DNA from: Alphaproteobacteria bacterium
Lineage (GTDB): Bacteria; Pseudomonadota; Alphaproteobacteria; UBA8366; Aestuariispiraceae
Direction: 5' to 3'
DNA length: 64,000 nt
Assembly (NCBI GenBank): GCA_033344895.1
Contig: JAWPMN010000001.1
Span: forward strand, 1,302,001-1,366,000
Under the pieces are notes generated by a model, which searched no databases, was not told the origin of the DNA, and was given only the letters and a program-made list of their open reading frames with translations. A program made the position numbers and the translations under genes. Each line of letters begins with the position of its first letter. The stretch's first letter is position 1. Shown here piece by piece: positions 4,879 through 31,961 of the stretch.

Positions 4879-4964
4879 TCTAATTCTTGGGTCAGGGGAT
4901 ACGGACCGCGGGAAAAGACGGTGCGACTCATGACCCTTAACGGGAGTTAGGAGGAAACCGTCCC

Positions 4965-6107
4965 ATGGCAGACAAGAAGCATTCGAAGCCCGGTCTCGAC
5001 CGGCGCAATTTCTTCAAGACCGCTGCGATCACGGGGGCCGCATTCGTCGGCGCCGGTGCAACGGCAGGCGGCCTGGCAAAACCCTGGATCCGGACAGCCG
5101 CCGCCGCCGGCACCACCTGGAAGATCCAGACATCCTGGCCGGGCGGCGTCGGCCTGCAGATCTTCAAGGACTGGTGCGGCAGCATCGCCGAAAAGACCGG
5201 CGGCGAATTGGCGTTCGAGCCCTTCGGCGCCAAAGACGTCGTCGGTGATTTTCAACTGTTCGACGCGGTCAAGAACGGCGTGCTGCAGGCGATGAACCCG
5301 TTCACGCTCTACTGGGCGGGCCGGATTCCGGCGTCGGTGTTCCTGAGTTCCTATCCGCTGGGCCTGCGCAACCCGCATGAGTGGGATGTCTTCTATTACG
5401 GCCTCGGCGGCCTGGAGAAGGCGCGCGCCTTGTTCGCGGAGCAGGGCATGCATTATGTCGGCCCGATACATCACGGCCCGAACATCATTCATTCCAAAGT
5501 ACCGATCCAGTCGATCGACGATTTCCGGGGCCGCAAAATGCGGCTGCCCGGCGGCATGGTCGCGGAAGTCTTTCAGGCGGCCGGGGCGAAGACAACATTG
5601 CTGCCAGGTTCGGAAATCTTCCCGGCACTGGAAAAAGGCACGATCGACGTGGCGGATTATGTCGGTCCGGCGATCAACTACGCCCTGGGTTTCCATCAGG
5701 TCACCAAATACATCTCCATGGGCCCGCCCGGCTTCATGTCACTGTATCAGCCCGTCGACTTGATGGACCTGACCGTCGGCATGGACGCCTGGAACGCCCT
5801 GTCGCCCGAAATGAAGCAGTTCGTCGAAATGGAAGTCCACGTCTATTCCGACATGCATCACGCGGCGATCCAGAAGGCCGACCAAGAATCCTGGAAGAAG
5901 TTCGAAGAGGCCGGCACGATCGTCACGCGGCTGGGTGAATCCGATGTCGAGAAATTCACCGAACTGGCGATCCCGCGCTGGTTCGCCTGGGCGAACAAGG
6001 ACAAGCACGCGGCCGAGATCTTCAAGATCCAGCTCGACTACATGATGTCGGGCAGCCTCGGCTATGTGACTCCGGGCATGGTCAAGGATCAGAAGCTCGA
6101 CCTGTAA
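4965..6107 (+). CDS. TRAP transporter substrate-binding protein (DctP family)
   Basis: Periplasmic solute receptor of 380 residues that captures ligand for the DctQ/DctM permease encoded next. The N-terminus has a Tat signal, DRRNFFKTAA followed by an Ala/Gly-rich stretch ending near residue 46 (AAAAGTTW), implying export of the folded protein. The mature start TTWKIQTSWPGGVGLQIFKDW and the later GPIHHGPNIIHSK place it in the TakP/FcbT1-like group, whose members bind 2-oxo acids or aromatic carboxylates. The ligand here is unproven. ATG 4965 follows GTTAGGAGGAAACC. A GC-rich hairpin separates it from the permease genes. Confidence 0.92.
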   Translation: MADKKHSKPGLDRRNFFKTAAITGAAFVGAGATAGGLAKPWIRTAAAAGTTWKIQTSWPGGVGLQIFKDWCGSIAEKTGGELAFEPFGAKDVVGDFQLFDAVKNGVLQAMNPFTLYWAGRIPASVFLSSYPLGLRNPHEWDVFYYGLGGLEKARALFAEQGMHYVGPIHHGPNIIHSKVPIQSIDDFRGRKMRLPGGMVAEVFQAAGAKTTLLPGSEIFPALEKGTIDVADYVGPAINYALGFHQVTKYISMGPPGFMSLYQPVDLMDLTVGMDAWNALSPEMKQFVEMEVHVYSDMHHAAIQKADQESWKKFEEAGTIVTRLGESDVEKFTELAIPRWFAWANKDKHAAEIFKIQLDYMMSGSLGYVTPGMVKDQKLDL

Positions 6108-6142
6108 TCGGCGGAACAGTCGGTAAATCCCTGTACCGACCG

Positions 6143-6182
6143 TCCGGGGGCGTGTTTTCCAAGATGGAAGCGCGCCCCCGGA
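6143..6182 (+). repeat. Intercistronic hairpin between TRAP binding-protein and permease genes
   Basis: TCCGGGGGCG (6143-6152) pairs perfectly with CGCCCCCGGA (6173-6182), and TTCC/GGAA can pair inside. No T-run follows, so it is not a classic terminator. Such structures behind binding-protein genes commonly protect the upstream mRNA segment and raise receptor over permease; that role is inferred from position. Confidence 0.55.
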
Positions 6183-6224
6183 TGTCGCCGCCTTCCCGTG
6201 ATTCGACGGTTCGGAGTGACATGA

Positions 6225-7343
6225 ATGCCTGACTTGGAATTCGTATTGCCGCACTGGCTCTACTGGGCGGGGCTGATCGCCTTCCCGCTGATCGCCATGG
6301 CGCTGGTCAAGCGCGCCGGTGCAAAGGGCGGCACCAACCAGACCAATCTTGGCGTCGGCTATCTGTGCCTGATCACAGGCGGATTTGTCGGCATGCATCG
6401 ACATTATCTGAAAAGCCTCTGGGGCTTTCTCTACCTCATCCCCTTCATCGGCATTCTGGTATGCAACACCTCCGGGCGCGACGCCCGGATCGCGCTCTCC
6501 CAGGTCAAGAACGACATTCTGTCCTATGAGTTCGAGGTGAAGCATTTCGGCAAGCGCGTCGCGGACGGATACGATGACCAGGACAAGCTGGATGCCGCAC
6601 AATCGGCGCTGGCGTCGGCGCAGCAGACCATCACCGCCGCTCAGGAGACCGTGGCCTTCTACAACGACATGGCGGGCTGGCTGGCGATCGCCATCGCGGT
6701 GGGCCTGCTGATCGATGCGATCCTGCTGCCGCGCATGGTCGCGCGCTACCGCGAGAACGAACCCAGACGCGCCGACGATCCCCCGGTCGAGGACAACCGG
6801 ATAGACCTGTCCGACAAGCCGTCCTGGTATCGCCCGATCGCCCATCTGAGCCGGCTCAGCGGCGAATTCGTGGCCTATTGGTGTGTCATCGCGGTCTTCG
6901 TCTACTACTACGAGGTCCTGGCGCGCTACGTCTTCAACTCCCCCACAAACTGGGCCCATGAAAGCATGTTCCTGATGTTCGGTATGCAGTATCTCATCTG
7001 CGGCGCCTATGCCTATCTGACCGACAGCCATGTGCGGGTCGATGTGTTCTACGCCAAACTCAGTCAGCGCCGGAAGGCAATCGCCGATATCGCGACTTCC
7101 TTCTTCTTCTTCGTTTTCGCCGGGACCCTGCTGGTCACCGGCTGGACCTTCGCGATGGATGCGATGCGTCAGATGGAAGGTCCGACGGGCAGTTGGGAAG
7201 TCAGTTTCACGGAATGGGCAATCCAGTACTGGCCGGTCAAGCTGGCCATGGTGCTGGGGGCGTTGCTGCTGGTCCTGCAGGGACTGGCGAAACTGGGCGA
7301 GGATATCGCGATCGCGGTCCGTCCTGATGTGAAGGAGGGCTGA
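6225..7343 (+). CDS. TRAP small permease (DctQ) with N-terminal TM2-like extension
   Basis: Small membrane subunit of the TRAP transporter, unusually long at 372 residues against about 160-200 for typical DctQ. Residues about 1-85 hold hydrophobic spans and a TM2-domain-like motif (GGFVGMHRHYLKSLWGFLYL). Residues about 90-145 are charged and helical, probably coiled coil (DKLDAAQSALASAQQTITAA), and a further span follows. The DctQ domain occupies about 205-365, with the family stretch YEVLARYVFNSPTNWAHE. It is followed after three bases by the large permease gene. The role of the extension is not known; similar long small permeases are, to my knowledge, seen in other alphaproteobacteria. Confidence 0.88.
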   Translation: MPDLEFVLPHWLYWAGLIAFPLIAMALVKRAGAKGGTNQTNLGVGYLCLITGGFVGMHRHYLKSLWGFLYLIPFIGILVCNTSGRDARIALSQVKNDILSYEFEVKHFGKRVADGYDDQDKLDAAQSALASAQQTITAAQETVAFYNDMAGWLAIAIAVGLLIDAILLPRMVARYRENEPRRADDPPVEDNRIDLSDKPSWYRPIAHLSRLSGEFVAYWCVIAVFVYYYEVLARYVFNSPTNWAHESMFLMFGMQYLICGAYAYLTDSHVRVDVFYAKLSQRRKAIADIATSFFFFVFAGTLLVTGWTFAMDAMRQMEGPTGSWEVSFTEWAIQYWPVKLAMVLGALLLVLQGLAKLGEDIAIAVRPDVKEG

Positions 7344-7346
7344 TCC

Positions 7347-8699
7347 ATGGGGCTCGATATCCCGATTGAGTGGCTTACCCTCCTGATGTTCGGCAGCCTG
7401 CTGGTGTTGCTGATGGCCGGCCTGCCGCTTGCCTTCGTCACCGGGGGTCTGGCCTGCGTCTTCCTGTTCCTGGTCGGCGACAGCGCCAAGATCCTGAACA
7501 TCGTCCCGTCCCGAATCTTCCCCCTGATGACCGACTATCAGCTCTCGGCCATACCGCTGTTCATATTCATGGCGGCGATACTGGAAAGGGCCGGCATCAT
7601 CCAGGACATGTTCGACGTCATCTACAAGCTGCTGGGCGGACTGCGCGGCGGCCTGGCGTCGGCAACCATCCTGGCCTCGACCATTCTGGCCGCCATGGTC
7701 GGGGTGATCGGCGCCGCGGTGGTGACAATGGGCATCATCGCCCTGCCGTCGATGCTGAAGCGTCAGTACGATCCCAAGATCGCCATGGGCGCGATCATGG
7801 CCGGCGGCACATTGGGCATCCTGATCCCGCCGTCGATTCTGGCCATCATCTATGCAGTCGTTGCCGAACAGTCGGTTGGAGAACTGTTCATCGGTTCGGT
7901 CATTCCGGGCCTGCTGCTGTCGGGCATGTATATCGCCTATGTGTCGGTCCGCTGTGCGCTGGACCCGAAGAAGGGCCCGGCAATCCCCATCGAGGAACGC
8001 ATCTCGGTTCGCGCGAAGTTCGCGCTGATGCGCGAAATGATGGCCCCGACCGTGCTGATCCTGCTGGTTCTCGGCGTCATCTTCACCGGCGTCGCAACCC
8101 CGGTGGAGGCAGCCGGGATCGGCACCTTCGGCGCCTTCATGGTGGCTGCCCTGCACCGCCGGCTGAGCTGGATCACGGTGCGCGAAGCCTGCATCACGAC
8201 CATCAAGGCCTCGTCCATGGTGCTGTGGATCATCTTCGGCGCCACGGTCTTTGTCGGCCTCTATGTCTTCGAAGGCGGTCAGACCTTCGTGCAGGAGGCA
8301 ATCGACGCCACCGGCCTTGGCGACTGGGGCGTGCTGATCCTGATGATGTTCATCCTGGTCATACTCGGCATGTTCCTGGACTGGGTCGGCATCCTGTTGC
8401 TCTGCGTTCCGATCTTCATCCCGATCATCAAGACCATGACCTTCGGCGGCCATGTCGCGCCGGAGGAGATCATGGTCTGGTTCGGGGTCCTGTATCTGGT
8501 GAACATGCAGATGTCGTTCCTGTCCCCGCCCTTCGGCTATGCGTTGTTCTATCTGAGGGGCGTCGCACCACCGGAAATCCCGATGAGCGACATCTTCAAA
8601 TCGGCCCTGCCCTTCCTGGCTCTCCAGATCGTCGGACTGGTGCTGTGCATGATGTTCCCCGATCTGATCACCTGGCTGCCGAGGCTGGTCTACGGTTGA
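7347..8699 (+). CDS. TRAP large permease (DctM family)
   Basis: The 450-residue transport subunit, with many hydrophobic segments along its length and family motifs such as MAGLPLAFVTGG near the start and AGGTLGILIPPSI around residue 152. It carries out sodium-coupled uptake of the ligand delivered by the periplasmic receptor. The start ATG at 7347 is three bases after the small permease stop, with GAAGGAGG as ribosome site overlapping the end of that gene. A GC-rich hairpin follows at 8739, closing the operon. The substrate is probably an organic acid, given the receptor type and PdhR-like operator. Confidence 0.93.
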   Translation: MGLDIPIEWLTLLMFGSLLVLLMAGLPLAFVTGGLACVFLFLVGDSAKILNIVPSRIFPLMTDYQLSAIPLFIFMAAILERAGIIQDMFDVIYKLLGGLRGGLASATILASTILAAMVGVIGAAVVTMGIIALPSMLKRQYDPKIAMGAIMAGGTLGILIPPSILAIIYAVVAEQSVGELFIGSVIPGLLLSGMYIAYVSVRCALDPKKGPAIPIEERISVRAKFALMREMMAPTVLILLVLGVIFTGVATPVEAAGIGTFGAFMVAALHRRLSWITVREACITTIKASSMVLWIIFGATVFVGLYVFEGGQTFVQEAIDATGLGDWGVLILMMFILVILGMFLDWVGILLLCVPIFIPIIKTMTFGGHVAPEEIMVWFGVLYLVNMQMSFLSPPFGYALFYLRGVAPPEIPMSDIFKSALPFLALQIVGLVLCMMFPDLITWLPRLVYG

Positions 8700-8738
8700 T
8701 CCGGATCGCGGAACGATACCGCTGAAGGCAAACCTCTG

Positions 8739-8770
8739 GGCGGGCCGGGAAACCGGCCCGCCGCTTTGTT
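8739..8770 (+). terminator. Terminator-like hairpin after the TRAP operon
   Basis: GGCGGGCCGG (8739-8748), GAAA loop, CCGGCCCGCC (8753-8762), then GCTTTGTT. The ten-base stem is perfect; the following T-tract is short, so termination strength is uncertain. Confidence 0.65.
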
Positions 8771-8810
8771 CATTGCCGCACTGCAAGATCAGCGCTATAT
8801 GCGAAGCGTC

Positions 8811-9479
8811 ATGATGCTTCTCTATCACCTCTGGCTCTCACCGCATTGCCGCAAGGTCCGGCTGATGCTGGGCGAAAAGCAGCTCACCTTCGAAACGCGG
8901 ATCCAGAAGACCTGGGACCGCGACGAGGCGTTTCTGGCGGTCAACCCGACCGGCGACGTGCCGGTGCTGGTGGACGAGGACGGAAACCGGGTCTGCGGCT
9001 CCCAGCCGATCTGCGAATATCTGGACGAGATGTATGGCGATCAGCCGCTGATCGGCACCGGTGCCGTGATGCGCGCCGAAGTCCGCCGCCTGATCGAATG
9101 GTTCGACATCAAGTTCCATGACGAGGTCGGCGTGAATCTGGTCGAAGAGAAGATCATGAAACGCTTTCTCGGCCTCGGGGAGCCGAGCTCCTCCGCCGTG
9201 CGCGCCGGGGGCCGGAACATTCACACCCATCTGGGCTATATCGGCTGGCTGGCCGAACGGCGCACCTGGTTGGCCGGGGATGAGCTGACACTGGCGGATC
9301 TGACAGCGGCGGCCCATCTGTCCTGCGTCGACTATGTCGGCGATGTGCCCTGGGACGACCATCCGGAAGCCAAGGACTGGTATGCGCGAATCAAGTCGCG
9401 GCCGTCCTTCCGGCCGATCCTGGGCGACCATATCCCCGGGGCGCCGCCGCCGAAACATTACGCGGATCTGGATTTCTGA
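8811..9479 (+). CDS. Glutathione S-transferase family protein
   Basis: Cytosolic GST-fold protein of about 222 residues. The N-terminal thioredoxin-like half begins LYHLWLSPHCRKVRL, with the glutathione-contact segment GDVPVLVDEDG and then CGSQPICEYLDE. The helical C-terminal half contains TWLAGDELTLADLTAAAHLS, the conserved N-capping box of GSTs. Start choice is uncertain: ATG at 8811, 8814 or 8799 are possible and none has a strong ribosome site; a TTG at 8766 is less likely because it falls inside the hairpin tail region. It lies 28 bases ahead of an SDR dehydrogenase gene and may be co-transcribed with it. Its substrate is unknown. Confidence 0.85.
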   Translation: MMLLYHLWLSPHCRKVRLMLGEKQLTFETRIQKTWDRDEAFLAVNPTGDVPVLVDEDGNRVCGSQPICEYLDEMYGDQPLIGTGAVMRAEVRRLIEWFDIKFHDEVGVNLVEEKIMKRFLGLGEPSSSAVRAGGRNIHTHLGYIGWLAERRTWLAGDELTLADLTAAAHLSCVDYVGDVPWDDHPEAKDWYARIKSRPSFRPILGDHIPGAPPPKHYADLDF

Positions 9480-18088: not shown

Positions 18089-18172
18089 GCCGCTTTCCCG
18101 CAAAAACCTTCCGTAATTCTGCCATTGCGTTACCCTAGGGGCGGGCTCAGGAGGACTAGCGGGGGAAGGGAT

Positions 18173-20266
18173 ATGGACGCGACACCGCGGTACCGGGTCA
18201 TGGTGCGCCTGGCAGGCCTTGTCGGGCTTTGTGCCCTGATCCTGGCCTTTTCCGACGGGGCGCTGGCCGAACGCCGGCTGGCTCTGGTGATCGGGAACGG
18301 CGCCTATCAGGTCGGGCCGCTGGAAAATCCGACCAATGATGCGGGCCTGATGGCGGAGACGCTGATATCCGCCGGCTTCGACGTCACCCATCTCGAAAAC
18401 CTGGGCTACCGGGACCTGCAGCGGGCGGTCGTCAGTTTCGGGCGCGACCTGAAGGCCGCGGGGCCGGATACCGTCGGCATGGTGTTCTATGCCGGTCACG
18501 CGGTGCAGGCGGATGGCGAGAACTACCTCATCCCGATCGATGCCAATATCCAGGATTCGCTGGATCTGCGCATTACGACCCTGGAGGTCTCCACCCTGAT
18601 GGCCAGCCTGCGCGCCGCCGGAAACCGTTTGAATCTGGTCGTCCTGGATGCCTGCCGCAACAACCCCTTCCCATCGATGAGCCGTTCCGGCTCGCGCGGT
18701 CTGGCAAAGATCGAGGCCGCCTATGGCACGCTGCTGGCATTTTCCACGGCACCCGGCGAAGTCGCGGCAGACGGGTCGGGCCGCAATTCGCCCTATACGG
18801 CGGCCCTGGCCAGGGCCATCCGTACACCGGGCCTGGCGGTGGAGCATGTCTTCAAGCGGGTCCGCGTCGATGTGATGGAGCGCACCGGTAACCAGCAGGT
18901 GCCCTGGGAGAGTTCCTCCCTGACCGGCGACTTCATCTTCATCGACCGTCCACCGGAACCGGTCGTTGCCGCACCTCAAGCGCCCGCCGTGCCGGACAAC
19001 ACCGCGGAAATCGAATACTGGAAAAGCGTTGCGGCCAGCAACGACCCGGCTGCGATCCAGACCTATCTGGACGCTTATCCCGGTGGCCTGTTCGCCAATC
19101 TGGCTCAACAGCGGATCCAATCCCTGCAGACCAACCAGGCCCTGGCAGCGCGGACGCAACATGAGGCCGCGGCCCGGGCCGCCTGGGACGCGGTGAAGGA
19201 TACCGACGACCCGGCCCTGCTGCAGTCGATCGTGGAGCGCTACGGCGATACGGTCTATGCGGAAGTCGCACAGGTAAAACTCGACAGTCTGCAGCAGGTA
19301 TCTGACGCCCAGGCCGCGCTGGATCGGGCCGCGACGCAGCAGGCGGCGCTGCCCCCTCCTGCCGCCCCCCCGGGTCCGCCGCCATCGGACGGGCGCCTCC
19401 TGTATCAGGGCAAGTTCATTGCGCAACGGAACTGCTATGGCGGCGGGACCTGGTGCGGCGGCAGCAGTACCTTCGACATGGATATCGAAATTATCGGCAC
19501 GGCGGTAACCCTGAAACTCAGGGGGCACGGCACCGGACTGACCCTGAAGACGAACCTGCGGGACAACCGCTTCGTCAGCACGAAATACATCAACGGCGTA
19601 TCGGGGAGCGAGGCCTTCTTCTTCTCCGGCACCCGTATCAACGATGAATTCCGGGTGGAAGTAACGCGAGGTTCGACCGTACCCATTTTCTCCGGCACTG
19701 CCGCTCGCGTAACGCCGGCCGCCACGACAGCGGCCGCGCCAGGTGCCGGCAATAGCCAGCAGGCGGAACTGCTGTTCTGGGAGTCGATCAAGGACAGTTC
19801 GAACCGCGCGGATTATCAGGCCTATCTGGACCGTTTCCCGAATGGCGTCTTCACCACGATTGCGCGCGATCGGGCCGCGAACGGATACGCCCCCCAGGTC
19901 GCCGCCCTGTCCCCGACCGCCGCACCGCCGCAGCACCCGCTGGACGGCGACTGGATCCTGACGGTGGAGACCACGATCCCCAATCCTCAGGCCCAATGGT
20001 GCCGCTGGGAAGAAGGTGTTGAGGAGGTCGTGACCTTCGAGGACGGGAATCTGGACACACGGGTCAAAACCAACATGGGCAAGAGTGCCCAGATCAAAAT
20101 GTCGCTGTCCGAAGGCGGTGCGAGTTACTTCGCCAAGCCACAGGGCTGGGGACAGCACCTCTTCTACGGCGACCTCGATCGGCAGGGCGACTTCTATCAG
20201 GCCGAAATCTTCATCACCATGTCGAATGCGCGCTGCAAGCAGACGATCACGCTGCGTCGCCCCTAG
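18173..20266 (+). CDS. Exported caspase-like (peptidase C14) protein with repeat modules
   Basis: A 697-residue metacaspase/caspase-domain protein. A signal peptide ends near residue 33 (GALAE). The caspase p20-like domain begins RLALVIGNGAY and carries the catalytic His109 in FYAGHAVQADGENY and Cys161 in VVLDACRNNPF, so the dyad is intact. After a proline-rich linker there are three related modules of about 35 residues starting near 278, 336 and 534, with the form W-x-S/A-[VI]-K/A-x-[ST] and then YLDAYPGGLFANLA-like text. Two beta-rich regions of unknown fold fill 400-510 and 580-697. Start ATG 18173 has GGGGGAAGGG upstream. Substrate and role are unknown. Confidence 0.88.
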   Translation: MDATPRYRVMVRLAGLVGLCALILAFSDGALAERRLALVIGNGAYQVGPLENPTNDAGLMAETLISAGFDVTHLENLGYRDLQRAVVSFGRDLKAAGPDTVGMVFYAGHAVQADGENYLIPIDANIQDSLDLRITTLEVSTLMASLRAAGNRLNLVVLDACRNNPFPSMSRSGSRGLAKIEAAYGTLLAFSTAPGEVAADGSGRNSPYTAALARAIRTPGLAVEHVFKRVRVDVMERTGNQQVPWESSSLTGDFIFIDRPPEPVVAAPQAPAVPDNTAEIEYWKSVAASNDPAAIQTYLDAYPGGLFANLAQQRIQSLQTNQALAARTQHEAAARAAWDAVKDTDDPALLQSIVERYGDTVYAEVAQVKLDSLQQVSDAQAALDRAATQQAALPPPAAPPGPPPSDGRLLYQGKFIAQRNCYGGGTWCGGSSTFDMDIEIIGTAVTLKLRGHGTGLTLKTNLRDNRFVSTKYINGVSGSEAFFFSGTRINDEFRVEVTRGSTVPIFSGTAARVTPAATTAAAPGAGNSQQAELLFWESIKDSSNRADYQAYLDRFPNGVFTTIARDRAANGYAPQVAALSPTAAPPQHPLDGDWILTVETTIPNPQAQWCRWEEGVEEVVTFEDGNLDTRVKTNMGKSAQIKMSLSEGGASYFAKPQGWGQHLFYGDLDRQGDFYQAEIFITMSNARCKQTITLRRP

Positions 20267-25484: not shown

Positions 25485-26048
25485 ATGCGCACCGACTTGT
25501 CCCCAATTCTGCGCCGCGCCGTGTTCGCCGCCCTTGCCGTGGCCACGCTGGGCGCCTGCACCCTGAACACCCAGAAACCGAGCGACGAGGGAATCGGATT
25601 CCGTACCCAGCGGTTCGAGGATATCGCCGCGATGCGCGAATATCGAACCTGCGTAGCCGACGCCGTCGAACTCGATCGCCAGGCCTATGCGACCCGCGCG
25701 ACAGCCAAATACCTCGCCAGTGCACGCCTTCTGGAAAGCTGCGAAGCGCAACTTGGACCGTCCGCCGCCAATGTCGCCCCGGACGAGCGCATGCAGGCCT
25801 ATGGCCTGGCCGTGCAGAACTACATCAAGGGCGGGGACGTCGATAAGGCGCGCGAAGCCCTGGCGCGGTTCGAAACCGCCTTTGCCGGACAGGACCTCTA
25901 CTACGCCGATGGGTCTTCCTTCACCGACACGATGGGCGCCCTGCTGGGCCGCTACGACGGAACCGATTTCGGCCAGTTCTCAACCCTCAACGTCAATGCC
26001 GACCTGAAGGCGGAAATGCGCCGGGTCGCCTACTGGTCGAAGAACTGA
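25485..26048 (+). CDS. Uncharacterised lipoprotein, first gene of the envelope operon
   Basis: A 187-residue lipoprotein with signal peptide and lipobox LGAC at about 22-25. The mature part is helical and charged, with DIAAMREYRTCVADAVELDRQAY, read as two helices, and an N-terminal region like a tetratricopeptide-type bundle. No named family was recognised. ATG 25485 follows CGGAGGTCCCC. It heads a run of eight same-strand genes (to 31961) that all encode exported or membrane proteins, with gaps of 48 bases or less, so it is probably a part of one envelope complex. Confidence 0.75.
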   Translation: MRTDLSPILRRAVFAALAVATLGACTLNTQKPSDEGIGFRTQRFEDIAAMREYRTCVADAVELDRQAYATRATAKYLASARLLESCEAQLGPSAANVAPDERMQAYGLAVQNYIKGGDVDKAREALARFETAFAGQDLYYADGSSFTDTMGALLGRYDGTDFGQFSTLNVNADLKAEMRRVAYWSKN

Positions 26049-26063
26049 GGAAAGGACATCGCC

Positions 26064-26960
26064 ATGAAGTGCTTCCCCCATCCCAGGGATTGGCGGCCGG
26101 CAGCCACCGCACCGCTGGTACTTGCCGTCACCCTGATGTTGCAGCCGGTTCCCGCACTTGCCGCGACGGACAGCCCGAATTGGGCCCCGACGGCGTCGGA
26201 ACGTTTAGTCAAACTGCCGACGGTCTATCTGAAGAAGTCGATCGACCGAGACTTTCAATCCTCCGGTCTTGCCGCGGCAATCCGCGACCGCACCGACGAG
26301 CTGGGCACCACACAGCAAACCATTCTGGAACTGCAGGACGCCATGGACATGGCTGAAGGCGATGTCCGTATCGAACTGAAGCATCAACTGCTTGCGCATA
26401 AGCAGGCCTTTGTTCAGGCGCTGGGAGCACGGATCGACCTTCAGCGTCGGGAAGCGGAGACCCGGGCGAGACTTTATCAGAACCTTCTGGACAAGATCTC
26501 CGCCGACGAGGCGGCGATGACGCCGGCGCGCCAGGAGCTGGTTGCGGCCCAGCAACTGGCGCGCCAGCGGTTCGAAAGCGCTATCGGCGATGTCGACATG
26601 GACGTGTTCGGCAGCGTCGCGGAAATGAGCCGCTACTCCGAAAAATATGCTGAAAACCGTGCTGCCATCGATGCGCTTTCCGCGAAGATCGCCGCCCATC
26701 CGATGAATCGCATGCCGGTTTTCGATGGGGAGGAAATGGATCGCAAGACCTACCTGCAGCGCCTTGCGGAAGACAGCCGCACCACGTTGGCCCTGCTGAC
26801 CCAGGAAGAGGAACTGCTGGGCTATATGGGCAAGCTGGTCGCCCTGGATGCCATGGCCCTGCATGACGAAATCGCCACGGCCCAGGCGGAAGAACAGGGC
26901 CTTGATCCGGATCAGGCGGGGGTCGAACTGTCCGACGCCGCGCGCCTGTTCCTGAACTAA
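26064..26960 (+). CDS. Uncharacterised periplasmic coiled-coil protein
   Basis: A 298-residue protein with an N-terminal signal peptide (cleavage near VPALA-A, about residue 33). The mature part is almost entirely helical and charged, with coiled-coil-like heptads around 75-165 (RTDELGTTQQTILELQDAMD and later RIDLQRREAETRARLYQNLL). No enzyme motif is visible. A length and helix pattern like this would suit an adaptor or scaffold in the periplasm. ATG 26064 has AGGAAAGGAC upstream and is 15 bases after the lipoprotein gene. I do not recognise a family. Confidence 0.75.
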   Translation: MKCFPHPRDWRPAATAPLVLAVTLMLQPVPALAATDSPNWAPTASERLVKLPTVYLKKSIDRDFQSSGLAAAIRDRTDELGTTQQTILELQDAMDMAEGDVRIELKHQLLAHKQAFVQALGARIDLQRREAETRARLYQNLLDKISADEAAMTPARQELVAAQQLARQRFESAIGDVDMDVFGSVAEMSRYSEKYAENRAAIDALSAKIAAHPMNRMPVFDGEEMDRKTYLQRLAEDSRTTLALLTQEEELLGYMGKLVALDAMALHDEIATAQAEEQGLDPDQAGVELSDAARLFLN

Positions 26961-26979
26961 CGCAAGGGAGTTCGAAACC

Positions 26980-27372
26980 ATGCTGAAACATCTTCTGACA
27001 TCCGCGGGACTTTCCATCGTCCTGCTGGCCGGGACGACCGCACAGGCGGCCGACACTCTGGAAAACCTGGAACGGGAGCGGGCGTTGACCGTTCAGACCC
27101 TGATCGACCCGGCCCTGGGCCCAGGAGAGCGCGCCGGAAAACTGGAGACGGCGATCCGGCGGCTGACCGACCTGGAACGCATGGCGATCCGGGATGACAG
27201 CCTGACCGGCGACACCTCCCCCGTCGTTCGGGTCGCGTTCAAGAACTATGACCTGACCTTCCTGGTGCATGGTTCCGTGGAGCGCAATGTCACCCTGATC
27301 GACCAGTGGATGGAACAGGTCGGGATCACCACCGACAGCCTTATGACGGCCCGGGTCGGGCGGCGTTACTGA
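26980..27372 (+). CDS. Uncharacterised small periplasmic protein
   Basis: A 130-residue protein with signal peptide (AQA-A near residue 24). The mature part is about 105 residues, with a helical hairpin (ENLERERALTVQTLIDPALG, then KLETAIRRLTDLERMAIRDD) and a C-terminal part containing VRVAFKNYDLTFLVHGSVER. No cysteine or enzyme motif is present. ATG 26980 has AAGGGAG upstream. The stop TGA overlaps the start of the membrane-protein gene (TGATG), which points to coupled synthesis and a possible physical partnership. No family was recognised. Confidence 0.7.
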   Translation: MLKHLLTSAGLSIVLLAGTTAQAADTLENLERERALTVQTLIDPALGPGERAGKLETAIRRLTDLERMAIRDDSLTGDTSPVVRVAFKNYDLTFLVHGSVERNVTLIDQWMEQVGITTDSLMTARVGRRY

Positions 27373-27875
27373 TGCGCACGCCGTCCCGAATCCCGGCCGA
27401 GGCGGCGGGACCGGTCGCACTGCGCGGCAGCTCAGTGCTGCTGGGCGTCGCGGTCCTGGCGCTCGCCGCCGGGGTGGCGGCGACGGATCTCGCCGCGTCG
27501 GACCTGCTGGACTGGCTCGCCGATACGCTGGGAATCGTCTTTCTGTCGCTGCTGGGCGCATTGTGCTTGGTCGCCTTCTGGGCCTGGATGCGCATCGTTC
27601 AGGATCACCCGCGCCGGGATTTCTGGCTGGAGGCCGGGCTACACGCCGCCGCCGCCATAGCAACGCTGGCCCTGACCTTCACCCTTCTGGGGATCAGCCT
27701 CGGGATCGGCACGCTGGCCGAGACCGATCTGACACCGGAAACCGTACAACAGGTTATCGCCCGGCTGACGGAACAGTTCAGTCTGGCCTTCATGACCTCC
27801 GTGATCGGTCTGCCGGTCTCCGCCGCCGTTCGAGCCCTGCTGCTGCTGACCGATCGCGCAGCCAGCAACGATTAG
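27372..27875 (+). CDS. MotA/TolQ/ExbB-like proton-channel-type membrane protein
   Basis: An integral membrane protein of 167 residues with about four hydrophobic segments (near 20-42, 52-73, 86-110 and 130-155). The third segment has LTFTLLGISLGIGTLA and the fourth LAFMTSVIGLPVSAAVRALL, resembling the paired channel helices of MotA/TolQ/ExbB proteins (the GLLGT-x-x-GI and T-[AS]-x-G-L-x-[VA] signatures). It is shorter than those proteins and has little cytoplasmic loop. The usual Asp-bearing partner is not obvious. The start shares TGATG with the previous gene. The assignment rests on motif resemblance by eye. Confidence 0.6.
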   Translation: MRTPSRIPAEAAGPVALRGSSVLLGVAVLALAAGVAATDLAASDLLDWLADTLGIVFLSLLGALCLVAFWAWMRIVQDHPRRDFWLEAGLHAAAAIATLALTFTLLGISLGIGTLAETDLTPETVQQVIARLTEQFSLAFMTSVIGLPVSAAVRALLLLTDRAASND

Positions 27876-27885
27876 GAGTCCCCCG

Positions 27886-28422
27886 ATGAAGTATCTCGTC
27901 TTCAACGCCGTCGTACTCTCCGCCCTGGGGTATCTTTTCGTCACGGAGGGGCGGATCGATCTGCCCCGTTTCACGGCAGATGCGCCGACGGTAAGCACAG
28001 CCCCCGTATCCGCAGGGGCCACTCCTCTCCCCGAGGCCACTGCACCGCCCGTGATGTCCCCATTGGCCGCCCCGGCCGCTGCTCCGGCAGACGCCCCGGC
28101 ACCCACCCAGGCGGCGCCCCAGGAAGGGTTTTCAGATGCCCCGTCTGTCGAAACCGCCGCAGACGACGCGCCCATAGCGCCCTCTGAGGACGCCGGAGTA
28201 TTCACTTCGCCGCCGGCCGCTTCCGTCCCCCTGCCGGACCTGCCATCCGTGGAGCCGGTGGAGACGCTGCCTGAAACCCGGATGGCGGCCGCGCCGTCCG
28301 AAGAAACTCCCGTGCGTCTGGAGGAAGGCGAGACCCTGATGTCGGGGCCGGAACGAACCCGCGAGTTGGACCGGCTGATCGAGGATATGGAGCTTTTCTA
28401 TATCGAACGGATTGCCCGCTGA
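27886..28422 (+). CDS. Uncharacterised single-span Pro/Ala-rich protein
   Basis: A 178-residue protein with one N-terminal hydrophobic segment (about 3-18), then a long Pro/Ala/Ser-rich stretch (about 30-130) and an acidic helical C-terminus (ERTRELDRLIEDMELFYIER). The layout suits an inner-membrane anchor with an extended periplasmic arm, as in TonB- or TolA-like tethers, though no TonB or TolA domain is present. ATG 27886 follows TAGGAG, 10 bases after the MotA-like gene. It may be the partner of that membrane protein; this is inference from position and topology. Confidence 0.7.
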   Translation: MKYLVFNAVVLSALGYLFVTEGRIDLPRFTADAPTVSTAPVSAGATPLPEATAPPVMSPLAAPAAAPADAPAPTQAAPQEGFSDAPSVETAADDAPIAPSEDAGVFTSPPAASVPLPDLPSVEPVETLPETRMAAAPSEETPVRLEEGETLMSGPERTRELDRLIEDMELFYIERIAR

Positions 28423-28443
28423 GCGGCGGCAATGGGAGGCGAC

Positions 28444-29508
28444 ATGCGGCAGAGAAATCGGGGCCCGGACATTGCAGTTGTCGCGCTGTGCCTGACTGCG
28501 GCCATCTTTCTGACGCTGTCGGCCTTCAGCGAGCCGCCGGCAGCAACACCGGTCGCGGCGCCCCCGCCGACACCCACCGACGCCACCCCGCCGGTTCTGC
28601 CTTCGGTACCGACAGCCCTCGTACTGCCGACGCCTCCACCGCCAGCGCCTACCCCGCAAGCCGCCGCCCAACCGGCCTCCCCCCGACCGGACACCCCGCA
28701 GCAGTCCCCGCAGTCGCCCCCGCAGTCGCCCCCGCCTGGCCCCTCGCTCGAGCCGATCACTGTGACGGCACTCAAACCCGACCTGGCGCGACCGGCGGCA
28801 ATGCCCATCACACCGTTGACCGTGACACCGATTGAGGATCCTCCACCGGTGCAACCGCGTCCCGCGCCGCCCCCCGCCCCTGTGCCGGTCGCGCCCGTCG
28901 CCGCAGCGGAACCGGTTCGCGGTCCCGCCGAGACGGAGGTTGCCGTGTCGGATAGCGGGCCCAAATCCGCACCAGCACTGAGACGCGGGCGGGCCTTGCT
29001 GCGCCTGCTGGAACAGGGTGCGGGCCCGGATATCAGGATCGCCTGGCCAGAGGACGCCGCCAGCCGGGAGCGTCTCCATTCCGTGTTGAAAACCTGTTTC
29101 GGCATGGAGAGCGTTCTGATGGACCGGCAGGGCCGGCTCTATACCGCAACCGGCATTCCCGGGGCCGCCCAAAGCCCCGACACGAATCGTTACAGCGGAT
29201 TCGTTCGGGTCGTTGAAGGCAGAATGCCGCTGCGGGAACGGGCCGACCTGACTGCCCTTTACGAACGCCACGGCCTGTCAGCCGGCGCCGTGCACGCGGT
29301 AAGGCTGTTTCCGCGCCGGGCGGATGCCATGCTCCTGGGCGGATTGTCGGAAATTCTGGGCGGCGCCCTGCCGAACGGACAGATGATCGCAGCCCGCTAT
29401 GCATTGGAGGACAATGACGTCACGATCACCGACCTGCGGAGCACCGGCACACCCGTCCCTGGGACGGTGCGGCTGCAGGCGCGCCCCGGCTGCAGGGTAT
29501 CGTCATGA
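28444..29508 (+). CDS. Uncharacterised single-span protein with Pro-rich arm and C-terminal domain
   Basis: A 354-residue protein. After a short basic N-terminus, one span covers about 6-25 with an Asp at its entry (RGPDIAVVALCLTAAIFLTL). Residues about 30-165 are very Pro-rich, with the repeat QSPPQSPP. The C-terminal domain (about 175-354) is compact, with charged helices (GRALLRLLEQ) and mixed strands, and no named family was recognised. The shape is TonB-like, but the TonB C-terminal signature is absent. ATG 28444 is chosen over 28432 for the GGGAGG ribosome site. The stop overlaps the lipoprotein start as ATGA. Confidence 0.75.
   Translation: MRQRNRGPDIAVVALCLTAAIFLTLSAFSEPPAATPVAAPPPTPTDATPPVLPSVPTALVLPTPPPPAPTPQAAAQPASPRPDTPQQSPQSPPQSPPPGPSLEPITVTALKPDLARPAAMPITPLTVTPIEDPPPVQPRPAPPPAPVPVAPVAAAEPVRGPAETEVAVSDSGPKSAPALRRGRALLRLLEQGAGPDIRIAWPEDAASRERLHSVLKTCFGMESVLMDRQGRLYTATGIPGAAQSPDTNRYSGFVRVVEGRMPLRERADLTALYERHGLSAGAVHAVRLFPRRADAMLLGGLSEILGGALPNGQMIAARYALEDNDVTITDLRSTGTPVPGTVRLQARPGCRVSS
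28707..28730. repeat. Tandem 12-base repeat in the Pro-rich arm
   Basis: Two perfect copies of CCCGCAGTCGCC, in frame, encode Pro-Gln-Ser-Pro units. Copy number could vary by slippage without shifting the frame, changing arm length. Confidence 0.85.
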
Positions 29509-30245
29509 CCTGCCGCGTAAGCACCATCGTCGGATTGATCGCGCTGCTGGGCACGGCCTGCGTACCGGAACGCGAACGCCCTTACGGCAGCCCTTCCGAA
29601 ATGCCCCGCGAGTTGGACCAAGGCACCGAGGTCAGCCTGTCGGAAGCCTATTTCACCGAATTGCCGGATTGCGTCACGCTGCTGCCGACCTCGAACGAGC
29701 ACGCTTCCGATACCGGAGAGGCCTTCGCCGGGTCAGCGGTTCTGGAGGTGGCCCTGACGCGTCACGCCCGCGACCGGTTCCCCCGCGTTATCGGCGGCCC
29801 GGAGCGGCGGCGTCTCGTTGACAGGCTGCTCGTCGATCTGACGATACCGGAAGATCGAGCCTATTTCGCACACCGCATTCGCTGCCGACATTTTCTGACT
29901 TTCGCGCCGTGGGGTGGCGCGGATCTCTATGCGGTGACCTACAGTCGCAAGACCGTCGGCATTGACGCCCGGCTGATCGGCACACGCGACAGCCAGCCGC
30001 TATGGCAGGCGCGGCACATCGCCGTCCGATCGGACGGCACGCTGCCCCTGTCACCCCTCGGCGCGCTGATCGGGGCCTTCGAGGCCGCCCGTCTGGAAAG
30101 CGACCCCGACCTGCCGAAATCCATGGCCGATGACGTCGCGCGACGGTTGATCGCGACACTACCGGATCTCGGCATGGCGGCATCCTGGACGGAAACGGCA
30201 CCCGGGGGCGTCCTCGGCTACCGCCCTGCGACGATGGACGATTGA
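29505..30245 (+). CDS. Uncharacterised lipoprotein
   Basis: A 246-residue lipoprotein with a signal peptide and lipobox LGTAC (Cys at about 19). The mature part has a run of conserved-looking strands and helices, including TFAPWGGADLYAVTYSRKTV and VGIDARLIGTRDSQPLWQA, reminiscent of lipoproteins such as GNA1162/LpoB-type CsgG-fold proteins, but no family could be fixed. The start overlaps the previous stop (ATGA), implying coupled translation with the Pro-rich protein. The DUF4384 gene follows 48 bases later. It is probably anchored in the outer membrane. Confidence 0.75.
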   Translation: MTCRVSTIVGLIALLGTACVPERERPYGSPSEMPRELDQGTEVSLSEAYFTELPDCVTLLPTSNEHASDTGEAFAGSAVLEVALTRHARDRFPRVIGGPERRRLVDRLLVDLTIPEDRAYFAHRIRCRHFLTFAPWGGADLYAVTYSRKTVGIDARLIGTRDSQPLWQARHIAVRSDGTLPLSPLGALIGAFEAARLESDPDLPKSMADDVARRLIATLPDLGMAASWTETAPGGVLGYRPATMDD

Positions 30246-30293
30246 CGCCAGACGCCGGTGGCCTCACTCTCCGGCGCCTCAGGAGGCAAGGGA

Positions 30294-31961
30294 ATGATAC
30301 CCAAGGGTCCGATCCTATTGGCGGTACTGGCAGCGGGCCTGCTGACAACGGCGGGAACGCGCGCGCAGATTGCGGAACAGATGCCGGCGCTCGGCACGAC
30401 CGACGCGGCAGCCGATCTTGCCCGCGAAATCCTTTCGACCGTTGAGCCGGACAGCCGCATCGCCGTTCGCCCACTGCGCGGCAGCCAGTCCAACCTGACC
30501 TCCAGCGTCGCCCGGGACCTTTACGAAGCCGTCCTGAATGCCCTGTTCAAGGCGTCGTCCGGCAATCATACGATCCTGACCCGCGAACGCCTGTCCCAGG
30601 TCTACGAGACCTGCGAGGAATTCTTCACCTGTGGCGACTACGCTGCCCGTCTGGAATCCGCGCGCGCCGACGTCGAGGTACAATGCGCCGCTTCCCCCGG
30701 GCCCAAACAGGTCCGGTTGTTCTGCTCGGCGGTCGAAATCGAAACGACCGTTACCGTCGGGCGCGGTCATGCCGTCTTCCCCCTGTCCGCCCTCTCCCCG
30801 GCCCGCGACTGGGCGCAAGCAATGGCGGGACTGGCGGCGGATTTAAACGGTTCGGTGGCGCTGCCGGGCAGTCTGGAGCGGGTGCATATCATCGACCAGA
30901 CGACCGGCACGCATACCGACTTTGCCGCGCTGCTTTCCAACAAGCTCCGCTTCGAACTGGGGCGACGCATGACCCTGCGCCAGGGCGATCTTGTCGACGC
31001 CGCGCAGGCGCGCAGACAATTGGGCTATGAGGACGAGCCGCTGCCGGTCTTTCCCGGGTACAGTTTGCGCGGGGTAATCTGGCCAGCGGGCGAAGACCGA
31101 CTGACACTGACGGTCGACCTGAACCATGACGGACGCACTCTGGCCATGGCCACGACCGACATCGCCGCGGACAGCATTCCCGAATATCTGCAGAACGGCA
31201 CGGGCGATGTGAACGGGCGGGTTTCCGCCTCTGCCCGGGCCATCGTTTCCGATCGACTGGACCATCGTTCGGCCATTCGGGCGGCGACCAATCTCGCCCG
31301 GGCGAGGCTGATCGCCCAGGCACTTGGCATGGCGGGGCCGATAGTCGACCTGATCGCCACGGAGGCCGACGCCACCCAGGCGCTGGGGGACGCCCTGGAA
31401 CGCGGCCTGCCCTATGACGAAGTACTCGAAATCCTGGAGCCCGCGGATAGCGACGGTAGCATCTCCGTGCATCTGACGGGACGGATTACCCCTGTCGGAC
31501 GTGCCGGCGCGCCGGATATTCGCGCGGCCTTGAGCAGGAACGTCTATGAAGCGGGCGATCCGATCTCGCTGACCCTGTCCACCGACCAGCCGGCAAGGAT
31601 CGGCATATTCGCCTGGGGCGCGGACAATCGTGTCGTTCGCCTCTATCCGGCGGACGGGATCGCGGCCCCGGACCTTGCTGCCGGCGAGGCTGTCACCCTT
31701 CCCGCCCCTTCGGAAGATCGTCAAATTCAATCCGCCCCTCTGGTATTGGAAGGTGAGGAAAATGCGGAGGATCACGAGATGCTGATCCTGGTTGCGACGA
31801 GCGGGGCCATCGACTTTGCGACCCTTGCCCCGGCATTGGGCCAGAGCGCGGCCGAGACATCGGCCAAGGCGACCGAAGGCGCGGCGTTCTTCCAGGCCCT
31901 GGTCGGGCTGGGCATGACGGACAAGCGCATCCTGGCGCTGCCCTATCAGATCCGGGAATAG
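30294..31961 (+). CDS. Exported DUF4384 protein with CsgG/FlgO-like N-terminal regions
   Basis: A 555-residue exported protein, last of the operon. A signal peptide ends near residue 24 (TRAQ). Residues about 40-175 and 185-300 look like two copies of a CsgG/FlgO-type fold: IAVRPLRGSQSNLTSS with TRERLSQVY, and RVHIIDQTTGTHTDFAALLS with KLRFELGRRMTLRQGDLV. The C-terminal 130 residues match DUF4384 (YEAGDPISLTLSTDQPARI, then RVVRLYPADG). DUF4384 domains often occur with caspase-like or penicillin-binding-linked proteins. ATG 30294 has a perfect AGGAGG seven bases upstream. It ends five bases before the convergent comF gene. Confidence 0.75.
   Translation: MIPKGPILLAVLAAGLLTTAGTRAQIAEQMPALGTTDAAADLAREILSTVEPDSRIAVRPLRGSQSNLTSSVARDLYEAVLNALFKASSGNHTILTRERLSQVYETCEEFFTCGDYAARLESARADVEVQCAASPGPKQVRLFCSAVEIETTVTVGRGHAVFPLSALSPARDWAQAMAGLAADLNGSVALPGSLERVHIIDQTTGTHTDFAALLSNKLRFELGRRMTLRQGDLVDAAQARRQLGYEDEPLPVFPGYSLRGVIWPAGEDRLTLTVDLNHDGRTLAMATTDIAADSIPEYLQNGTGDVNGRVSASARAIVSDRLDHRSAIRAATNLARARLIAQALGMAGPIVDLIATEADATQALGDALERGLPYDEVLEILEPADSDGSISVHLTGRITPVGRAGAPDIRAALSRNVYEAGDPISLTLSTDQPARIGIFAWGADNRVVRLYPADGIAAPDLAAGEAVTLPAPSEDRQIQSAPLVLEGEENAEDHEMLILVATSGAIDFATLAPALGQSAAETSAKATEGAAFFQALVGLGMTDKRILALPYQIRE

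Follow-up and report, generated by a model that had tools for sequence, protein, structure and literature searches.

Eight genes on the + strand at 25485-31961 of the window (the whole 64,000-nucleotide stretch of alphaproteobacterial DNA that was analysed) make up one half of a conserved group of approximately 13 genes. We estimate a probability of roughly 60% that these genes, designated g1-g8, constitute the periplasmic and outer-membrane half of a motor-driven trans-envelope system together with its channel subunit, and that a second operon, composed of families F9, F7, F12, F11 and F5, provides the other half. Taken as a whole, the thirteen-gene set probably builds an ion-driven machine that spans the entire cell envelope and includes a cell-wall cutter and a Lon-like protease. 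The first-pass annotation of this DNA had proposed an operon for an apparently undescribed envelope assembly; the operon is indeed conserved and linked, but it accounts for only half of the assembly, as F9, F7, F5 and F11/F12 are encoded in the second operon.

All eight ORFs run in the same direction (Table 1), with the widest intergenic gap (48 bases) between g7 and g8 and overlaps between g3 and g4 (TGATG) and between g6 and g7 (ATGA). In these respects the first-pass annotation was accurate, as it was in describing every product as exported or membrane-bound: a signal peptide, lipobox or membrane span was present in each of the eight. The lipobox cysteines of g1 and g7 were kept in 7/7 and in 26/26 ungapped members. 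The g2 protein, which is the best marker of the system, showed 30-48% identity to most relatives and matched no Pfam family over cut-off, while large cytoplasmic domains were absent from g4. For g8, the ATG at 30294, preceded by AGGAGG, was preferred over the GTG at 30258 from which the mechanical ORF begins. The DUF4384 domain of g8, already named in the earlier description, was the sole match over a curated cut-off in single-protein searches of the eight products; no window protein scored over a curated cut-off for Tol-Pal, Ton, Mot or Lpt, whose signatures had been reported as absent. Likeness to CsgG/GNA1162-like lipoproteins was seen in the g7 family, where 9/28 members matched PF05643 (GNA1162-like; best 4.9e-4), and in g8-type proteins of relatives, one of which (locus L050) matched CsgG (7.1e-7) and PG_binding_1 (5e-14). 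In contrast, the g8 of this genome matched only DUF4384 over cut-off, and its CsgG likeness rests on distant relatives; curli genes were not seen in the operon. Base composition of the operon was similar to that of its flanks, and a promoter and terminator scan of the operon gave no signal above shuffles. A phage or plasmid origin was considered and rejected, with no match to PHROGs and no match of g4 in plasmids.

Table 1. Position and sequence features of the eight operon genes within the window.
Gene	Product	Position	Strand	Features
g1	Lipoprotein, 187 aa; first gene of the operon	25485-26048	+	Lipobox LGAC, Cys25 invariant
g2	Periplasmic helical protein, 298 aa	26064-26960	+	Signal peptide
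g3	Small periplasmic protein, 130 aa	26980-27372	+	Signal peptide, motif LENLERERA
g4	Polytopic membrane protein, 167 aa, ~4 spans; ZorA-like, presumed motor A subunit	27372-27875	+	
g5		27886-28422	+	One N-terminal span (MKYLVFN), acidic/Pro-rich linker, short C-terminal helix
g6		28432-29508	+	One N-terminal span, LPPPP-like motif, Pro-rich linker, ~170-aa C-terminal globular domain
g7	Lipoprotein, GNA1162-like	29505-30245	+	Lipobox, Cys19 kept
g8	Secreted protein with C-terminal DUF4384	30294-31961	+	Signal peptide; PF14326 E 1.9e-7

Conservation of the operon as a unit was assessed by searching 43 genomes of the order for g8, which a few of them contained, and comparing those loci. All eight genes occurred in identical order in six other related genomes, and a ninth gene, g9, encoding an OmpA-domain protein (OmpA match 3.2e-18), was located between g7 and g8 in four genomes. 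A scan with the g2 alignment recovered 50 loci, mostly from Alphaproteobacteria (including Terasakiella, Magnetovibrio, Aestuariispira, Curvivirga and metagenome-assembled genomes) with some labelled Gammaproteobacteria; a phylum sample added other classes, and F9-F7-F12-F11-F5 and g1-g6 were found together in most of its inspected loci. Adjacency, defined as same-strand neighbours and counted among loci holding both genes of a pair, was nearly complete along the operon (g1-g2 51/51, g2-g3 50/50, g3-g4 47/47, g4-g5 36/36, g5-g6 35/36 and g6-g7 31/31). The maintenance of gene order in ~50 loci argues for a selected operon rather than stray ORFs; scattered, unlinked homologues, which the first-pass annotation had listed as evidence against its proposal, were not what the compared genomes contained.

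Within its genus the operon is patchy (2/6 genomes). Matches to its flanking genes lie ~63, ~167 and ~55 bases apart in congeners G009, G010 and G012, respectively, versus 6.5 kb here, and in these three genomes exactly the eight genes are absent from an otherwise intact junction, which indicates that the eight genes were gained or lost as one block. The operon was also encountered in CP051228.1, titled Mesoflavibacter (a Bacteroidota name), with 91% identity in g2; the sequence resembles congener G011 and the record name looks wrong.

Clustering of neighbouring genes revealed that F10, F9, F7, F12, F11 and F5 lie directly upstream of g1 in most relatives. In the present genome F9-F7-F12-F11-F5 are instead encoded at C1:1623133-1627923, 289 kb from g1-g8. 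Adjacency was complete for F9-F7 (28/28), F12-F11 (23/23) and F11-F5 (23/23), with F5 next to g1 in 20/30 loci. Both F9 and F12 were present in 7/7 related genomes with g1-g8, and neither was found in 4/4 congeners without g8. Among 337 genomes of the class, g2 was present in 15, F12 in 17 and both in 11, against an expectation of 0.76, although the genomes are related and these counts do not represent independent events. In three of the genomes with g2 only, F9-F7 immediately preceded g1; thus F9, F7 and g1-g6 appear to form the core, with F12-F11-F5 a strongly associated module. The latter may be separable, as some loci (Sneathiella type) lack it next to g1 and others have it without g2. Instances of F12-F11-F5 with no g1-g7 nearby were observed at L145 (9757-13087) and L148 (8552-12622), once after an SLT-like gene, so a Lon-type module may exist independently. 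Stops or frame changes in single genomes appear to break F12 at G340:C1:3297654-3299293 and both F12 and F5 at L044 (6186-9258), for which either decay or assembly error is possible.

Several other genes were observed in the neighbourhood of the cluster. A secreted caspase-like protein (LALVIGNGAYQ) is encoded at 18125-20266 of the window, ~5 kb upstream of the operon, and caspase-like genes also adjoin the cluster in L036, L040, L047, L053 and L070; these neighbours are variable and were left out of the system. In the gammaproteobacterial loci L065 and L067 (about 4933-9310), the genes before g1 encode a Ser/Thr kinase to which an FGE-sulfatase-like domain is fused, and a large F10-like protein that matches FHA weakly. 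In one sub-type (L031, L050, L051, L057-L059, L062 and L151), response regulator and histidine kinase genes, as well as 17-kDa-antigen/glycine-zipper proteins, are located beside the cluster.

MotA/ExbB-type motors drive processes as different as flagellar movement, gliding, the uptake of nutrients, the stability of the outer membrane and defence against phage. The first-pass annotation had described g4 as MotA/TolQ/ExbB-like, and this agrees with the match of 35/39 members of its family to the PADLOC ZorA2 model (best 4.6e-5); its further statement that a Zorya signature was absent was wrong, because g4 matches the ZorA models. Matches to PF01618 were weak (4/39 members, best 0.047), alignment of g4 with TolQ by hhalign gave the expected register with P 0.05, and a search of the PDB with the g4 profile returned nothing relevant. 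In a decoy test, the profiles of g4 and F9 did not separate TolQ, MotA and ExbD from decoys, which counts against the motor reading. Thr142 is present in 39/39 members and position 143 is T in 33 and S in 6, which on the alignment, rather than on structure, places the Ser/Thr ring residues in the last two core helices. Assignment of g4 to the MotA/ExbB/TolQ superfamily, with ZorA as its nearest relative, is supported but not proven. As its candidate partner we infer F9, which resembles ExbD/MotB in layout: a single membrane helix followed by a small periplasmic domain. A Glu at the start of the F9 membrane helix (Glu18) is invariant (31/31), at the position where MotB, ExbD, TolR and ZorB have Asp; F9 thus lacks the Asp essential in ExbD, TolR and MotB, though Glu may do the same work. 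None of the 31 members matched an ExbD or MotB Pfam family, hhalign to ExbD gave P 0.13, and a profile search of the PDB returned nothing relevant. Both g5 and g6 were rejected as the ExbD-like partner, a conserved acid being absent from their spans. Genuine MotA/ExbB-family and ExbD-family proteins are encoded elsewhere in the same genome.

The layout of g6 is TonB-like, with a helix, a Pro-rich linker and a globular end. Its C-terminal domain was modelled with pLDDT mostly >90 and had no PDB match in structure searches, and the conserved His of the SHLS motif is missing from its span; TonB and TolA were not among the structure matches, though g6 may still be related to them. The F7 family consists of SLT lytic transglycosylases (PF01464 at 3.2e-24, over cut-off, in the L036 member), with the copy in this genome 48% identical to an F7 member. 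F5 is laid out as a Lon-type domain (residues 1-182), a membrane span and a periplasmic part, the last of which contains DUF4384 in four members. Nearly all PDB matches to the F5 profile were Lon proteases (best E 1.7e-4); the F5 model, with pLDDT mostly >90 in the Lon-type domain, had Lon as its top Foldseek match (E 3.5e-4), and by VIA (Z 14.6, rmsd 2.6, 150 residues) all rows listed were Lon/RadA/ComM Lon folds. Ser78 and Lys127 are invariant (24/24), with the lysine aligned to that of the KEK motif of Lon, so a working dyad is likely from the sequences. F5 thus shares with S16 proteases their fold and the placement of the Ser/Lys dyad, and is a membrane-anchored Lon-type protease domain with putative activity; unlike Lon, it has no AAA+ ATPase and continues into a membrane span and periplasmic domain. 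A profile search of the PDB with F12 returned no match.

Linkage and conservation of the genes, co-occurrence of the two loci and the domain identities of F5, F7, g8 and g9 are established; from these parts we infer a complex energised by ion flow. The minimal ZorA/ExbB-like protein g4 would form an inner-membrane ring, inside which F9 would sit as the MotB/ExbD-like subunit and be moved by the ions. Attached to this motor, g6 and perhaps g5 would relay the motion via the Pro-rich linker, for which the lytic transglycosylase F7 would open a gap in the cell wall. The far end may act on the outer-membrane lipoproteins g1 and g7, on g8 (CsgG/DUF4384) and, where other genomes encode it, on the peptidoglycan-binding OmpA-like g9. 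At the cytoplasmic face, F5 with F11 and F12 could supply or control a substrate, or limit activity by proteolysis. Most likely the system would do mechanical work on the outer membrane in the manner of Tol/Ton, or export material to it.

Of the known motor systems, Zorya (PMC11890865) shares with these genes a membrane A subunit, in that g4 matches ZorA models and has the conserved S/T positions, and the g9 of some genomes matches the ZorB periplasmic domain (8e-8). In contrast to ZorA, however, g4 (167 aa) is without the cytoplasmic tail, which PMC11890865 describes as important for function; F9 has Glu in place of Asp and no OmpA/peptidoglycan-binding domain, with g9, where present, a separate protein; none of g1-g8 or of this genome's F5-F12 matched ZorC, ZorD or ZorE; and Zorya has none of the many lipoproteins, the transglycosylase or the Lon-type domain found here. 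Tol-Pal (PMC7391070) and Ton follow a comparable plan, with a ring of the TolQ/ExbB type, a small partner that crosses the membrane once, a bitopic transducer rich in Pro (as g6), periplasmic and outer-membrane proteins and, as in some of the genomes here, an OmpA-like protein, but g6 has no SHLS His, and its C-terminal domain matched nothing in the PDB. The vWA motor-driven force transducers (PMC12204202) are newly recognised TolQ-like motors with a similar series of helix, Pro-rich linker and new C-terminal domain, although no vWA domain was recognised here and the partners differ. Confident assignment to an established system, the other outcome that the first-pass annotation had listed as evidence against its proposal, was likewise not obtained. 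The defining features of Zorya are lacking and the system is no demonstrated member of Tol or Ton; the best reading is that it works like Tol, Ton and Zor while belonging to none of them.

The same parts could be arranged otherwise. We consider it somewhat unlikely that the set is a secretion or surface-assembly system, in which an export path, made of the CsgG/GNA1162-like outer-membrane proteins together with the SLT enzyme, would be powered or opened by the motor and the Lon-type domain would process the cargo. SLT transglycosylases are usual in trans-wall secretion machines and a dedicated one is present here, CsgG is an export pore family, and the kinase and FHA-like protein (weak, E 0.23) adjoining some gammaproteobacterial loci recall type VI clusters; yet genes for a secretion ATPase, a beta-barrel secretin or cargo were not recognised, and for CsgG the likeness again comes from relatives of g8 and not from the protein of this genome. 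Quite unlikely, in our assessment, is an unpowered scaffold or stress sensor, with g4 structural and the set connecting a regulatory protease with the cell wall and the outer membrane to sense envelope damage. Sequence support for the motor is weak, Asp is absent from the span of every protein, and the histidine kinase, response regulator and 17-kDa-antigen-like genes beside one sub-type would suit a sensor, but the invariance of S/T at 142/143 of g4 (39/39) and of the F9 Glu (31/31) fits an ion path, and the frequency of ZorA matches in the g4 family (35/39) also points to a motor.

Only a slight probability is given to a Zorya-related anti-phage or conflict system in which the ZorA-like motor senses envelope disturbance and the protease F5 is the effector. 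The nearest recognised relatives of g4 are ZorA proteins, the distribution in the genus is patchy (2/6 genomes) with clean gain or loss, and a protease module and, at some loci, caspase-like neighbours are at hand. Against it stand the missing ZorA tail of g4 and ZorB-type OmpA domain of F9, the failure of g1-g8 and of this genome's F5-F12 to match any further component of Zorya or of PADLOC, and flanking genes that, where inspected, are ordinary chromosomal rather than defence genes; the many secreted lipoproteins and the cell-wall lyase fit envelope work better. The motor-driven trans-envelope system accordingly remains our preferred reading.

No description of the system was found in the open-licence literature, and none appears in the passages identified in the motor-diversity papers PMC12505986 and PMC12204202 or in the Zorya paper PMC11890865. 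Literature on GNA1162/DUF4810, and on Lon together with TolQ or ZorA, yielded nothing relevant, and that found for DUF4384 concerns caspases and radiation resistance. According to the 2025 survey PMC12204202, further motor systems of the MotA/ExbB type await discovery. We suggest tentatively, as a possibility short of an even chance, that this is a class of trans-envelope machine in its own right, the first to combine a ZorA/ExbB-like ring with a Lon-type protease anchored in the membrane and a dedicated lyase for the cell wall. Such a machine would perform a task, such as the movement or export of an envelope component controlled by proteolysis, that none of the known Tol, Ton, Mot, Zor, Agl or secretion systems carries out. 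There is a real chance that the job of the system is new. The system has a parts list, two separately deletable operons and close relatives naturally without it; it is present in named isolates (e.g. Terasakiella, Aestuariispira and Curvivirga), and the residues that bear directly on the motor and protease claims are Glu18 of F9, Thr142 of g4, and Ser78 and Lys127 of F5.
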